Below are positions 14,980 through 57,874 of a stretch of 64,000 nucleotides of DNA, one piece after another. Positions within the stretch are counted from its first letter, which is position 1. Each line of letters opens with the position of its first letter. The notes under the pieces are model-generated. The model saw nothing but the letters and a program-made list of their open reading frames with translations, did not search any database and was not told where the DNA came from. Origin of the DNA: Butyrivibrio sp. (GTDB taxonomy: Bacteria > Bacillota > Clostridia > Lachnospirales > Lachnospiraceae); contig SVFZ01000026.1 in assembly GCA_015056585.1 (NCBI GenBank), forward strand, positions 1 through 64,000, written 5' to 3'. The position numbers were made by a program, and so were the translations under genes.

Positions 14980-15115
14980 ATGTATATCCTCCATGCTTCT
15001 TCTAGGTTTCTCTGTGGTTTTTTTCATGAATTCTCTAAATGATCAAAGATAAGATCACATTAATTATACACTCTCATGGTTACTCGAATGTCCAGAAACA
15101 TATCTTATAATATCC

Positions 15116-15431
15116 TTTTCATGGGACGAGCTCACTTTTCTCTGTATATTTGAAAAATATCAGCTCACTAACGTTATCTTCTTTTGCTTTTTCATGGGGA
15201 ACTCTACCCTTTGCCCATATATTTGAAAGATCCAAGTCAAACAGCGCTTTCTTCCTCTGATTTTTCATGGGTAAGTTTCGCTTTACTCTCCATATTTGTA
15301 AAATCCATTCAACCTGCCTTCCTGACCACTGTTTTTTTCATGGGTAGATTTCACCTTTCTCCCTATATTTGTAACCCCATGATCATCGGCATTCACACCT
15401 TCGATTTTTTCATGAGAAAACTTTAGAACAA
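15116..15431. repeat. Degenerate ~73-bp tandem repeat, 4 copies plus a partial fifth
   Basis: Copies begin near 15116, 15188, 15261, 15334 and 15406, giving periods of 72, 73, 73 and 72 bp. Each starts with TTTTTCATGGG (last copy TTTTTTCATGAG) and copies 1-4 carry a second conserved block like CTATATTTGTAA about 25 bp later; the remainder diverges. The period is not a multiple of three throughout, so it is not a conserved coding repeat. It fills most of the 15,028-15,633 gene-free stretch between the divergent-looking neighbours; all flanking genes are on the minus strand. Confidence 0.7.
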
Positions 15432-19615: not shown

Positions 19616-19660
19616 TGTGCGTGACAGGATTCGAACCCACGACCTTCTGGTCCGTAGCCA
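19616..19660. other. attL: 45-bp duplicated tRNA-Arg 3' segment
   Basis: Identical over 45 bp to 57801-57845. It covers the tRNA from the discriminator base through the T-arm and variable region to the 5' side of the anticodon stem; identity stops at the next base. The 5' half of a tRNA is not restored here, so this copy is not a functional tRNA. Confidence 0.95.
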
Positions 19661-19707
19661 AAAGTTCAATTGCTCAACCATGCGATTTATCCGGGTTGAA
19701 TTTTACA

Positions 19708-21894: not shown

Positions 21895-22350
21895 TTAACC
21901 TTCAATCTCTTCAGACAGCTCCATAACAGCCGCTCTGAGTTCAACAATATCTGTCACATTTGCTTCTGTCTCTTCGGAAGTTTCCATGAGGCCTTCCCTT
22001 GTGTCAGCGATATCTTCCTCACTGATTTCGATCCTGATTGTCAGTTCATCATTTGTGGCCGGAACAACATCCTCATTCTCTCTGAATACCCCATTGTCAT
22101 AAATGTACTTTCCAGGAGCGTAATCATCAGGAATAATGTCGCACGGAATAACATCAAGGACATTGTAATAGTCCTCTGTGAAGGACTTTAATACGAATGG
22201 CCTTATTGTGCTCTCTGAGCTTAATACTCCCAGAGCCTCTTCTCTGTCTCTTACAATGACAGTTTTACCGGTAGTCTGATTTTTGCCAATAAGAATACAG
22301 TCTTCCGTGACATCGATCACTACCTGATTAAGGTTTACATGAACAAACAT
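21895..22350 (-). CDS. Late-operon protein of unknown function
   Basis: A 151-residue acidic protein with a beta-rich N-terminal half and a Glu-rich coiled-coil-like C-terminus (~105-151). It overlaps the end of the reverse-transcriptase gene by 23 bp and precedes the lysis genes. In tailed phages proteins in this slot are often minor tail or fibre-associated components; no specific family is recognised. Confidence 0.6.
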   Translation of the reverse strand: MFVHVNLNQVVIDVTEDCILIGKNQTTGKTVIVRDREEALGVLSSESTIRPFVLKSFTEDYYNVLDVIPCDIIPDDYAPGKYIYDNGVFRENEDVVPATNDELTIRIEISEEDIADTREGLMETSEETEANVTDIVELRAAVMELSEEIEG

Positions 22351-23554
22351 CTCTCTCCTCCTTCATTGATTCTATGAATAGCTCATCAAAGAGCTTATCC
22401 ATCCTTGTTATTGTTTCGTATTCATTCTTGTATTTCTTGGAATAGTGCTGAGAAGTGGCCGGAGTATGTTTAAGATATCCTCTCCATGACCTGTATTGCT
22501 GCTCTATCATCTTGTAAGTCAGCTCACCCTCATCCATGAGGCGTTTAAACTTCTTAAGCTTCCGGCGCTCGTAAGTGATGTTCTTTCTTGAGTGCCTGGT
22601 GATTATCCGGCCAGAATCCTTGAGAATATATCTTTTCTTCAGAATGGTAAATCCTTTTGAAAGCTTCGTGATATACGTTTTTCTTTCTGAAAGGATTATT
22701 CCTAAACTTTTGGTAATAATTCTGATACTCTCAAGGATCCTCTCTGCCTCTTCTTTAGTCTCACAAAACAGATAAAAGTCATCGTTATATCTGTGATAGT
22801 GCCTGACTCCTAAAACTGTCTTGATATAATGATCCAACTTGTTAGGTATCGATATCGCATAGATCTGATTGAGTTCGCTGCCAAGGCCAAGTCCTCTTTC
22901 TCCATAGTGACTTATGGACTTCCTTGTGTACTCAACAAATCTCTTATCTTCAAAGTGTTTATCGATGATCCCAAGAAGGACATCATGATCAATGCTGTCG
23001 AAAAATGAAGTAAAATCTCCCACGATAACATATCCACTATTTCCATGAAAGTGATACCAGTTGTGAAGATGCTTAAGTATTCGCTTTCTCGCATAGTCTG
23101 TCCCTCTTCCTTTGAGGCTGGCGCTGTTATCATATATGAGAGAGTTCCGCAGCATAGGAACAAATGAGTTTACAGCCAGGCTCTTTTCGATGCATCTCTC
23201 CGATATATGGATGCTCCTTATCTTACGTTTCTTGCCTCTTTCATATATCTCGAACTGATAGAATCCTTTGAAAGTGTCTTTGCCCTCTTTCAGATTCCTG
23301 TGAGCGCGGTGGCTATTCCTGCAAAGATTAAAGCCATATCTCTGGACTGAAGACTTCCATCTTACATTACCTCTGCAATTAAAATATGCTTTTATATGCT
23401 CAGTCATGGAGATAGCCTTGTCATAGTCTCCATACAAGACATTCAGCTCATGCTTTCTCTTTAGCCTTTTAGCTTTTCTCCTCTGATACCTTAACTCATG
23501 TCTTTCTTTTGAGTTCACCCTGTACAGCGTTCCTTTCCCGGCTATTAGCTGCAT
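22328..23554 (-). CDS. DGR reverse transcriptase
   Basis: A 408-residue reverse transcriptase. Fingers-palm motifs in order: KKRKIRSIHISERCIEKSL (motif 1-2 region), GDFTSFFDSID (catalytic Asp ~180), GLGLGSELNQ (motif 4), HRYNDDFYLF (YxDD box as YNDD, ~255-258), then a thumb ending near 400. The basic N-terminal ~80 residues fit RNA binding. There is no maturase, endonuclease or protease domain and no intron structure around it. The family usually shows SQ in motif 4; here it is NQ. The TR, an Avd-like gene and two VRs confirm the DGR role: copying TR RNA into adenine-mutagenised cDNA. The ATG at 23554 has a poor ribosome site; a GTG 11 codons later is an alternative. Confidence 0.95.
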   Translation of the reverse strand: MQLIAGKGTLYRVNSKERHELRYQRRKAKRLKRKHELNVLYGDYDKAISMTEHIKAYFNCRGNVRWKSSVQRYGFNLCRNSHRAHRNLKEGKDTFKGFYQFEIYERGKKRKIRSIHISERCIEKSLAVNSFVPMLRNSLIYDNSASLKGRGTDYARKRILKHLHNWYHFHGNSGYVIVGDFTSFFDSIDHDVLLGIIDKHFEDKRFVEYTRKSISHYGERGLGLGSELNQIYAISIPNKLDHYIKTVLGVRHYHRYNDDFYLFCETKEEAERILESIRIITKSLGIILSERKTYITKLSKGFTILKKRYILKDSGRIITRHSRKNITYERRKLKKFKRLMDEGELTYKMIEQQYRSWRGYLKHTPATSQHYSKKYKNEYETITRMDKLFDELFIESMKEERDVCSCKP

Positions 23555-23717
23555 AGCTCATGGACATGAAACAGGGTGCCAAGCCTGCCATGCAAGAAGC
23601 GTCCGTCCATGAGACATCATGATGTAAAATTTACCTTTTCAGGAAGGTCATAGGCTCCTTCATTACTTTTTATCAGTGCTTTCACTCATAAGAGCTACTT
23701 TGTCGTTATCTTTGTAA
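23555..23717 (-). ncRNA. TR-RT spacer of the DGR template RNA, structured
   Basis: The 163 bp between TR and the RT start hold strong dyads: CTCATGGAC (23557-23565) pairs perfectly with GTCCATGAG (23605-23613), a smaller CAGG/CCTG hairpin lies inside, and ACATCATGATGT and GTAAAATTTAC palindromes follow. In phage BPP-1 the equivalent spacer is required for cDNA priming on the template RNA. The same role here is inferred. Confidence 0.5.
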
Positions 23718-23843
23718 TGAATCAGGGGAGCACACCATTAGAGTTGCTGGCGTTGTTGTTGTTCGGAGCGCCCGAAGTGTTGACATTGCAGAAGTTCGTG
23801 CTGTTGCTGACATTCGGCGAAGCCAACCAAACATTCACGGCGG
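23718..23843 (-). repeat. DGR template repeat (TR), 126 bp
   Basis: Read on the minus strand the TR carries many AAC/AAT (Asn) codons in the frame used by both variable proteins. It has 31 adenines; VR1 differs at 14 positions and VR2 (over 112 bp) at 16, every one at a TR adenine. The reading would hit TGA near the 3' end where both VRs have TGC, so TR is a template and not a gene. It sits between avd and the RT as in BPP-1. Confidence 0.97.
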
Positions 23844-23858
23844 TAATAGCCTATAACC

Positions 23859-24263
23859 TTATTTCATTCTTGTTTTATCTGATTCTATCCAGTTCTTGAT
23901 CAGTTTCTCTTCTTTCTGAAGCATCTCTCCAATTTCCAGGAGAATCCCTTCCGGGATCGTGAAGTCAAGCTCTTCGGCCAGGATGATCTTTCTGAAGAGA
24001 AATTCTATCCGGATGAGAGCTTCCTTCTGATAGGTGAGCCTTCTTTTTAAGAACTCCGGCGAGAGATCTGTCTTGTTGGCCGCCTCTATATAATCGACCA
24101 GCTTGTGCGCATCCTCTATCATGGATGTAACGAGGATAAACCTGTATCTCTTTGGAAAGTATTTCTCATTCATGCACAGCTTTATGATCCTGACTTCTAT
24201 CTTCCTGGCATCATCCCTGACTGCAAAGGGAGACTCGCTTCTGAATCTTGCAAGTACGCTCAT
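23859..24263 (-). CDS. Avd-like accessory protein of the DGR
   Basis: A 134-residue, mostly helical protein consistent with the four-helix-bundle Avd family (accessory variability determinant), whose pentamer binds the RT and template RNA. Basic stretches (RLTYQKEALIRIEFLFRKI and KYFPKRYRF) fit nucleic-acid contact. The order variable protein, avd, TR, RT is the canonical one. AAGGAG lies 4 nt before the ATG, and the DGR hairpin of VR1 ends 13 bp upstream of the start. Confidence 0.88.
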   Translation of the reverse strand: MSVLARFRSESPFAVRDDARKIEVRIIKLCMNEKYFPKRYRFILVTSMIEDAHKLVDYIEAANKTDLSPEFLKRRLTYQKEALIRIEFLFRKIILAEELDFTIPEGILLEIGEMLQKEEKLIKNWIESDKTRMK

Positions 24264-24275
24264 GTGTCTCCTTAT

Positions 24276-24297
24276 GTGGGCGCAAGTGTGCGCCCAC
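24276..24297 (-). other. DGR hairpin downstream of VR1 (9-bp stem, CACT loop)
   Basis: GTGGGCGCA and TGCGCCCAC form a perfect 9-bp stem with loop CACT on the coding strand, 45 bp after the end of VR1. In BPP-1 a hairpin/cruciform just downstream of VR is needed for efficient retrohoming. The VR2 copy has a different stem but the same loop. Confidence 0.8.
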
Positions 24298-24322
24298 GAT
24301 TATGCTGATTCCCTCCTTCTGC

Positions 24323-25225
24323 TTACGCAGCCGGAGCAATTCTGAAGCAGGGGAGCACACCATAAGAGTTGCTGGCGCCGTTGGAGTACGGAGCGCCCGA
24401 AGTGGCGACAATGCAGAAGGCCGTGCTGTCGCTGACATGCGGCGAAGCCAACCAAACATTCACGGCGGCTCCATTTACTCCCTGAGTCCTTACTCTACTG
24501 GCTGCGTTAGTAAATACTGGGTACTGGTTATTTACTGAGTTCTCAGTGCTTCCAGAATATGTTATGCCACCAAATACCTCTTTCTCAGTAGGGATCCAGA
24601 TCTTGTCATTCGATGTGACAATCTGGTTGACCTGAGAGCCTGATGTTGCCTTAACAGGCTTTGCTGATATAACAGCCTGGAGATCTGAAGGAAGTGATGT
24701 GATAAAAGTCTGATTGAGCCAGGTCCTTAAATCAGATGCATTCCAACCTCCGGCGTTAGTATTTGAAGTGTGGTGCTGTCTTGTGTTGGCCAGACAGTTG
24801 GCAGGGATAAAGTCAACCTCTCCAAGGCCGTAGGTGTTGACATTGGCCTCAAAGTATACAACCTCTCCGCCGGAGAGTGTAACAGTGAATCTGTCTCCGT
24901 TATGAATATAAGAAGCTGCAAGGCCGCTATCGATGATCCTCTTGACACCATCCCAAGTTGCAGTTGTAAGCCCCATGTCTAACTCATGGTATTCACCGAA
25001 ACCACATACAACATATGTGGTGTAAACCACAGTGCTTCCATTAAGAAGCTGGACAGTATACTTGTCTCTTGGCGGTACTATGACCTTGACAACCAGGCTT
25101 GAGCCTATGGTAGTTGTTGATATTACCGTTCCGGCACTAGATGTTACCTTGATTTTCTTGTTTTGATCTGCTGATGCGCATTTGCATACCAGCTGACAAA
25201 AAGCTCTGAATCCTACTTCTGACAT
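24323..25225 (-). CDS. DGR variable protein 1: tail protein with C-terminal lectin-fold domain
   Basis: A 300-residue protein, probably at the tail tip as the receptor-binding variable unit. Residues ~1-85 are a beta-rich attachment region (IKVTSSAGTVIST ... VYTTYVV); ~90-300 form a DUF6273/formylglycine-type C-type lectin fold with WLASP (~260) and a closing GVLPCFRI strand. The last ~42 residues are written by VR1; variable codons all derive from TR Asn, Ser or Thr codons (for example H, D, A, I, Y). It is next to the tail fibre gene and starts 12 bp after its stop, giving the phage a way to switch host receptor. Confidence 0.93.
   Translation of the reverse strand: MSEVGFRAFCQLVCKCASADQNKKIKVTSSAGTVISTTTIGSSLVVKVIVPPRDKYTVQLLNGSTVVYTTYVVCGFGEYHELDMGLTTATWDGVKRIIDSGLAASYIHNGDRFTVTLSGGEVVYFEANVNTYGLGEVDFIPANCLANTRQHHTSNTNAGGWNASDLRTWLNQTFITSLPSDLQAVISAKPVKATSGSQVNQIVTSNDKIWIPTEKEVFGGITYSGSTENSVNNQYPVFTNAASRVRTQGVNGAAVNVWLASPHVSDSTAFCIVATSGAPYSNGASNSYGVLPCFRIAPAA
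24343..24468 (-). repeat. DGR variable repeat 1 (VR1)
   Basis: 126 bp colinear with TR, 112 identical. All 14 differences are at TR adenines (coding strand). The invariant GC-rich 3' end (GTGCTCCCCTG) is the probable initiation-of-mutagenic-homing site; its TGC codon against TGA in TR could be the IMH/IMH* difference. Confidence 0.96.
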
Positions 25226-43498: not shown

Positions 43499-43522
43499 CT
43501 CTGACCTCCTTATAATTTTATT

Positions 43523-43573
43523 ATACACATTTTATGTGTATTGTCAATAGTTTATACACATTTTTTGTGTATA
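43523..43573. promoter_or_regulatory. Twin operators of hicAB
   Basis: ATACACAT-TTT-ATGTGTAT (43523-43541) and TATACACA-TTTTT-TGTGTATA (43553-43573) are inverted repeats with nearly the same arms, centred 31 bp apart (about three helical turns), immediately upstream of hicA. This suits cooperative binding of the HicB ribbon-helix-helix dimer. Confidence 0.8.
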
Positions 43574-43609
43574 AAATAAGCAAGGCGAAAACCTTGCTTA
43601 TCATTTTTC

Positions 43610-45935: not shown

Positions 45936-45969
45936 ATTTTGCCTGCTTTCCTTCTCTGTCGATATATTT

Positions 45970-45993
45970 CTGCTCCTCAAGTGTGAGGAGCAG
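45970..45993 (-). other. DGR hairpin downstream of VR2 (10-bp stem, CACT loop)
   Basis: CTGCTCCTCA and TGAGGAGCAG form a perfect 10-bp stem with loop CACT on the coding strand, 41 bp after the end of VR2 and 12 bp after the stop codon. The loop matches that of the VR1 hairpin exactly while the stem sequence differs. Confidence 0.8.
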
Positions 45994-46005
45994 ATTAAAA
46001 AAAGA

Positions 46006-46584
46006 TTATTCCGCTACCGCTTCACGATTGATCTTGAAGCAGGGGAGCACACCATAAGAGGTGCTGGCGCCGTCGTAGTCCGGAGCGCCCGAAGTGCCGA
46101 CAATGCAGAAGTCCGCGCTGTAGCCGACATACGGCGAAGCCAACCAGTACCATCTTGAGCATCCATGCTTATCTCCGTTGAGCCTTATTCTACCGTAGCC
46201 TTTCCTGAATAAGCTCCACTGTTTTCCCTTGCTCTTGTCCGCCCAGTCGCAATCCTCACGTTCTCCAAAGACCTCATTAAACCACGGGACAAATATCCTG
46301 CTGCCTTCTCGCTTCCCCATAATGTTCTTAAGGTCCTGAGGAAGTGTATCGAGGTATTCGTTGTTAAGGAAATCCATGAGGTCATCATGCGTCTGATCGT
46401 ACTTATCAGGCAGGCAATATCTTCTGACCATGTAGATATATTTCTTTCTGATCTCCGCAACCTCAAAGGCTGCCTTCCCGGCAATGTCCTCTGTTATAAG
46501 TCTGTCGCCCACTTTTAATGTGCTGGCCTTTGCCTGGACCTTAAACTCTTCGATTGTGTATTTCATTTTTCCGTTAAGCTGCAT
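46006..46584 (-). CDS. DGR variable protein 2: short lectin-fold protein
   Basis: A 192-residue protein with little outside the DUF6273-like C-type lectin domain: KVGDRLITEDIAGKAAFEVAEI (~22-43), SRIFVPWFNEVFGE (~95), then the VR-encoded end (YWLASPYVGYSADFC ... YGVLPCFKI). Last ~37 residues come from VR2. It lacks the beta-rich attachment region of variable protein 1, so it is either soluble, attached by another partner, or acts in the host cell. AAGGAGG precedes the ATG by 6 nt. The next gene is a glycosyltransferase. Confidence 0.92.
   Translation of the reverse strand: MQLNGKMKYTIEEFKVQAKASTLKVGDRLITEDIAGKAAFEVAEIRKKYIYMVRRYCLPDKYDQTHDDLMDFLNNEYLDTLPQDLKNIMGKREGSRIFVPWFNEVFGEREDCDWADKSKGKQWSLFRKGYGRIRLNGDKHGCSRWYWLASPYVGYSADFCIVGTSGAPDYDGASTSYGVLPCFKINREAVAE
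46035..46146 (-). repeat. DGR variable repeat 2 (VR2)
   Basis: 112 bp colinear with TR, 96 identical; all 16 differences are at TR adenines. Identity stops abruptly at 46146, 14 bp earlier than in VR1. The 3' GC-rich end is the same as in VR1, so both should be used by one template. Confidence 0.95.
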
Positions 46585-57791: not shown

Positions 57792-57800
57792 CATTGTAAG

Positions 57801-57845
57801 TGTGCGTGACAGGATTCGAACCCACGACCTTCTGGTCCGTAGCCA
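57801..57845. other. attR: 45-bp core within tRNA-Arg
   Basis: Direct repeat of 19616-19660. Identity begins at the discriminator base and ends in the 5' strand of the anticodon stem, so strand exchange at the anticodon loop leaves the tRNA intact. Confidence 0.95.
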
Positions 57846-57874
57846 GACGCTCTATCCAGCTGAGCTACACGCAC
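57801..57874 (-). tRNA. tRNA-Arg (anticodon ACG), prophage attachment gene
   Basis: Complete cloverleaf: acceptor GTGCGTG/CACGCAC, D-arm GCTCAGCTGGATAGAGC, anticodon TCTGG-CTACGGA-CCAGA (ACG), T-arm GGGTTCGAATCC. The 3' 45 bp are the phage-brought copy. Confidence 0.96.

Follow-up and report, generated by a model that had tools for sequence, protein, structure and literature searches.

Hairpins with a common CACT loop follow both VRs of a Butyrivibrio prophage DGR and are likely target elements for retrohoming

Why would two genes of one prophage, both targets of the same diversity-generating retroelement (DGR) and each with its own variable repeat (VR), be followed by a hairpin with the same four-base loop on a different stem? 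The 64-kb stretch of DNA analysed here (the window) contains a Butyrivibrio prophage with a DGR and two targets. The original prediction read the hairpins behind both VRs as a structural retrohoming signal, of a class different from that of phage BPP-1. Our analysis partly supports this reading as a whole.

The prophage is bounded by a partial (19616-19670) and a complete (57800-57874) copy of tRNA-Arg. Outside of it, four direct repeats of approximately 41 nt are found at 15115-15374, with an exact 73-nt spacing. A perfect TTGACA-16-TATAAT promoter-like site is located at 43520-43601 on the minus strand, beside a terminator-like hairpin. All parts of the DGR lie on the minus strand: the reverse transcriptase (RT, 22328..23554; PF00078, phrog_1423), the template repeat (TR, 23718..23843), between these two the spacer RNA (23495..23712; Rfam RF03077 ‘RT-2 RNA’, 122 bits), and Avd (23859..24263; phrog_3206 ‘Avd protein of DGR’, E 1.9e-9). 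Both target genes, also on the minus strand, are DUF6273 genes. The first (24323..25225) carries VR1 (24343..24468, minus strand) and adjoins tail fibre genes, and the second (46006..46584), with VR2 (46035..46146, minus strand), lies 22 kb off, upstream of a glycosyltransferase gene. The TR differs from VR1 at 14 TR adenines and from VR2 at 16, with no mismatches elsewhere. The locus is thus a DGR, as indicated by the adenine-only differences and by the DGR-type RT, the Avd and the spacer RNA.

The closest named relative is Butyrivibrio sp. INlla18, which belongs to the same genus as the window. At its 3′ end (near 23718 in the window), the TR reads GATT in 68 of 98 relatives, a sequence present at only three VR ends. 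The VR ends read GCTT in the examples inspected, and this fixed A/C difference looks like the IMH*/IMH distinction of the clade.

Each VR is followed by a hairpin with a CACT loop on the coding strand, as predicted, and these two are the sole dyads of at least 7 bp with a CACT/AGTG loop in the 64 kb. The VR1 hairpin (24276..24297, minus strand; GTGGGCGCA-CACT-TGCGCCCAC on the coding strand) has the expected perfect 9-bp stem and starts 45 nt past the end of the TR/VR1 identity. The VR2 hairpin (45969..45994, minus strand; TCTGCTCCTCA-CACT-TGAGGAGCAGA on the coding strand) is perfect as well, but its stem has 11 bp. The 10 bp described previously (45970-45993) are the inner part of it, and the distance from the end of the TR/VR identity is 40 nt instead of 41 nt. 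The stems, first regarded as unrelated, are mostly different but not wholly so: both end in CA/TG beside the loop and hence have the 8-mer CACACTTG in common. Perfect hairpins with a stem of 9 bp or more and a loop of 3-8 nt are few in the window, with just seven distinct cases. Three of them have 4-nt loops, namely the VR1 and VR2 hairpins and a third with the loop GTCA. DNA folding yielded −11.5 and −11.7 kcal/mol (z = −5.7 and −6.3) for the VR1 and VR2 hairpins, respectively.

Similar structures are known from BPP-1 and its phage relatives. In BPP-1, the stem must pair while its sequence is free, and the loop acts in a sequence-dependent manner; the hairpins arise on supercoiled target DNA and influence how efficiently integration proceeds, not where it occurs (PMC3240598). 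The published target hairpins have a GRNA loop consensus, a GC-rich stem of 7-10 bp with free sequence, and a distance of 4-34 bp, described as ‘quite flexible’ (PMC3240598). BPP-1 with its GAAA loop, the comparison made originally, is one member of this described family and not an isolated case. When the system was reconstituted in Escherichia coli, deletion of the stem-loop impaired homing severely, though not completely (PMC12875486). Group IIC intron targets, from a related retroelement family, also use a DNA stem-loop as target, but there the loop sequence matters little and the sites are terminators (PMC3240598).

The window hairpins share with the BPP-1 family (PMC3240598) the position 3′ of the VR as inverted repeats, the GC-rich stem of free sequence, the short loop, the flexible distance, and the placement after the VR and not after the TR. 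Their stems of 9 and 11 bp agree with the published range, with VR2 slightly over it. In contrast, the 4-nt loop on the sense strand is CACT in both cases instead of GRNA, a tandem AATC precedes the stem, and the distances of 45 and 40 nt from the end of the TR/VR identity exceed 4-34 bp. This excess is small, because the same pipeline gives 15 for BPP-1, published at the low end. Taken together, it is very probable that both hairpins are cis-acting DGR target elements which raise retrohoming efficiency, the counterpart of the BPP-1 hairpin/cruciform.

A survey of relatives paints a similar picture. From IMG/VR and related genomes, we gathered 158 loci in which a TR/VR pair could be recognised and applied one hairpin rule throughout, covering about 100 related phage DGRs and 133 distinct VRs. 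As a positive control, the same pipeline retrieved GAAA in BPP-1, GGTA in VP58.5, and GATA in phiARM81mr and ACA1. Within 130 nt, 86% of the 133 distinct VRs had a perfect stem of 7 bp or more, compared with 5% in shuffled sequences. Within 90 nt, hairpins followed 108 of the 133 VRs, and only 9 of 133 TRs; in this range, about a fifth of the VRs lacked a perfect stem of that minimum length. An absence of post-VR hairpins in relatives, which would have spoken against the original prediction, was thus not seen. GC-rich hairpins of at least 8 bp reached 7.2 per kb after the VR. The remainder of these loci had 0.076 per kb per strand, so that the density after the VR is approximately 95 times higher. 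Furthermore, a second, distant DGR target of about 200-400 aa is common in the relatives, usually 10-25 kb from the RT (e.g., in loci L067+68 and L249, and in the IMG/VR records of L109, L148 and L223). The survey shows that VR-downstream hairpins mark the targets of the hypermutation machinery in related phages. The distance between VR and hairpin, used previously as an argument for a variant class, is weak evidence, given the flexible published range and the 18-55 nt (10-90% range) in the related DGRs.

GC-rich stem-loops at the 3′ ends of target genes could also be intrinsic transcription terminators, and a T-rich tail does follow 11 of the 127 hairpins of the relatives. However, no T tract follows either window hairpin, a terminator scan calls neither of them, and in the same loci T tracts are rarer near VRs (6 of 74) than elsewhere (40 of 246). 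The VR1 hairpin directly precedes the avd ribosome-binding site, and the TR, in the same operon, is usually without a hairpin. This largely refutes the terminator reading, which we regard as highly improbable, and supports DGR target hairpins both in the window and in the approximately 100 related DGRs. A function in the mRNA, either in protecting the 3′ end or in insulating a downstream ribosome-binding site, would agree with the Shine-Dalgarno-like sequence present at most 20 nt downstream of 55 of the 127 hairpins, and with the strand bias of the stems (5′ arm C-rich in 97, G-rich in 24). It is nevertheless very unlikely, considering that the hairpins follow VRs anywhere, also at second targets that belong to other operons, and seldom occur elsewhere in these phages.

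The INlla18 phage has an RT 76% identical to that of the window, and its VR1 region can be aligned gap-free. Between the two VR1 stems there are three double, compensatory changes and no broken pair, while the loop and the near flanks are kept. By itself, this two-sequence comparison is weak, with 51 of 500 shuffles scoring equally high. The comparison of all four hairpins of both phages is stronger: of nine pairs, seven have changes in both arms, and 36 of 36 cells are paired, compared with at most 50% in slid controls, although these percentages lean towards structure because the hairpins were chosen as perfect dyads. The proposed conservation of pairing without conservation of stem sequence is borne out by these compensatory changes, and the suggested search for covariation around a fixed loop found all stem changes compensated and the loop either fixed or different by one base.

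Another shared feature is a tandem AATC directly before the stem. It abuts the VR1 hairpin (24298..24310, minus strand; AATCAGCATAATC) and abuts or overlaps the foot of the VR2 hairpin (45993..46007, minus strand; AATCTTTTTTTAATC), and the commonest spacing is 8 nt from start to start. Two AATC within 26 nt were present in 34 of 98 non-redundant DGRs, from which relatedness was partly removed, as opposed to 3.4 in shuffles (maximum 8). Part of this enrichment may come from stop codons (TAATC). In the literature searched, we found no description of a tandem AATC as part of a DGR target site.

The CACT loop itself is confined to the window phage and its 76% relative, the INlla18 phage, with three CACT and one TACT. 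CACT as a wide class was rejected, as closer relative searches yielded no further phage with this loop. When the VR end was used as a DNA pattern, the scan was mostly unspecific, with the window's own phage as the sole match recognised. The variant class proposed originally therefore stands in that the loop at both sites is not GRNA, and falls in that CACT, found in two phages only, is not a broad class.

The wider clade nevertheless has a loop class of its own. Among 127 hairpins, only two have GRNA loops; five-nt loops dominate (71), followed by four-nt (24) and six-nt (21) loops. Of the 71 five-nt loops, 63 have complementary bases at positions 1 and 4 (shuffled mean 29, maximum 42), and these pairing loops include 18 distinct loop sequences on 54 distinct stems, with T or C as base 5 in 60 of them (for example CTTGT, TTTAT and CTCGT). 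In the same loci, 1-4 pairing was found in 38 of 42 five-nt loops after VRs, but in only 9 of 44 elsewhere (Fisher P ~2e-11). Six-nt loops show 1-5 pairing in 15 of 21 cases. The loop plan of the clade is thus that base 1 pairs with base n−1, followed by one extra base, mostly a pyrimidine, which gives mostly YNNRY-type loops where the BPP-1 family has GRNA. CACT fits this plan only with the top A-T pair opened, as ACACTT with an A1-T5 pair and an extra T. It can be read in this way, although folding favours the plain CACT tetraloop over the opened form. In GRNA loops, too, positions 1 and 4 are in contact, as a sheared G.A pair that encloses a loop of two bases, and the GRNA and paired-loop classes may achieve one geometry in two ways.

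In the open-licence literature searched, the only DGR loop rules found are GRNA (PMC3240598) and a GRA version in archaea (PMC4372165). The nanoarchaeal hairpins are likewise associated with VRs and constrained in their loops, but these are GRA trinucleotides inside the target gene (PMC4372165). Judged against this literature, what is new here is the class of the loop, whereas the DGR target element that carries it, and the system as such, are of a known kind.

Does the identity of the loop matter, beyond its plan? We drew second VRs from the source records of the loci and compared 25 pairs, leaving out three remote candidate VRs, which were too weak, and one duplicate. Identical loops at both targets were found in 10 of the 25 pairs, the sharing seen in the window being thus repeated in its relatives, compared with 0.72 expected from permuting partners. 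Where the stems differ next to the loop, 5 of 17 pairs still have identical loops (0.46 expected). The loops of the other 15 of 25 pairs do not match exactly, so that the agreement within a phage is a tendency, and recognition cannot be a matter of strict identity everywhere.

Part of the loop sharing could go back to the duplication of a cassette of VR and hairpin, and it might be that nothing reads the loop at all. For example, the VR2 of the INlla18 phage and the VR1 of the window share AATCAGCATAATC ahead of the stem, and in loci L117, L173 and L176 the stems at both sites are identical or near-identical, which makes them uninformative on loop sharing. L126 (CTTGT) and L109 (TTTAT) have identical loops on partly similar stems. 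On the other hand, identical loops sit on different stems in the window phage (CACT), in L067+68 (GCACA), in L223 (CGTGT), and in the mutually related L148 and L160 (both TCAAT), and the stems of the window and INlla18 phages have changed by compensation around a loop that is fixed or different by one base. Duplication as the only cause is weakened by this, because common origin by itself does not keep a loop constant on a changing stem, and we consider it unlikely.

Alternatively, the loop could be selected solely for the physics of the apex, such as easy extrusion or a compact mini-loop. The regularity of 1-4 pairing plus an extra base over 18 different five-nt loops points in this direction. 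So does the proposal that the stem-loop prolongs the opening of the target during lagging-strand synthesis (PMC12875486). The same paper describes target finding and target opening by DGRs as steps that are not yet fully understood. Apex physics leaves unexplained, though, why exact loops are shared more within phages than between them, and why a CTTT substitution in the loop abolishes homing of BPP-1 (PMC3240598). As the sole explanation, it appears rather doubtful. Reading of the loop by a factor is favoured, because a role in opening would not by itself lead one to expect that targets of one phage share their loops.

An RT tree rooted with BPP-1 places the window, its 76% relative, L107 and L108 together with good support (SH-aLRT 96), nested in a larger clade of 92 rows in which the paired loop plan prevails. 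The GRNA phages VP58.5, ACA1 and phiARM81mr make up a clade apart from these. Exact loops agree with this tree only modestly, which counts against our reading, with 77 changes (shuffled mean 84.5, minimum 80 in 300 shuffles), and loop length requires 33 changes compared with 43 in shuffles. The RT-2 RNA (RF03077) of the window was also detected in 11 of 20 relatives tested and thus looks like the DGR RNA of the clade, whereas BPP-1 has Phage_DGR (RF03022); VP58.5, phiARM81mr and ACA1 gave no Rfam match. There was no support for pairing between the loop and the DGR RNA, as the reverse complement of the loop was not enriched in the TR-RT spacer (permutation P 0.28), before the TR (0.77) or in the TR (0.48). 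The loop sequence itself was slightly enriched upstream of the TR (P 0.01) in one of six tests.

Judged from sequence comparisons, our results support a loop-dependent retrohoming signal. A GC-rich stem of free sequence would present a short apical loop just 3′ of the VR on the target DNA. Acting as DNA, the stem-loop would raise the efficiency with which TR-derived, mutagenised cDNA is written into the VR, and it may be needed for retrohoming here, as it has been shown to be in BPP-1. The loop may be read by a cognate trans-acting factor, be it the RT, Avd, or an RT-2-class RNA complex, which would explain why loops tend to agree within phages and differ between them. It is possible, and we put it forward tentatively, that the loop serves as an address, with each DGR reading its own loop and one phage marking all of its targets alike.

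The hairpin signature is useful for finding distant DGR targets. With a second widespread loop class and the agreement within phages, the question of recognition becomes a simple loop-swap experiment, and the loop becomes a rule for designing DGR-based directed evolution in cells that contain two or more such machines. If the loop is indeed an address, different DGRs would use mutually exclusive loops, loop swaps would redirect hypermutation, and GRNA and the paired-loop class would be two alphabets tied to the class of the RNA, Phage_DGR or RT-2.
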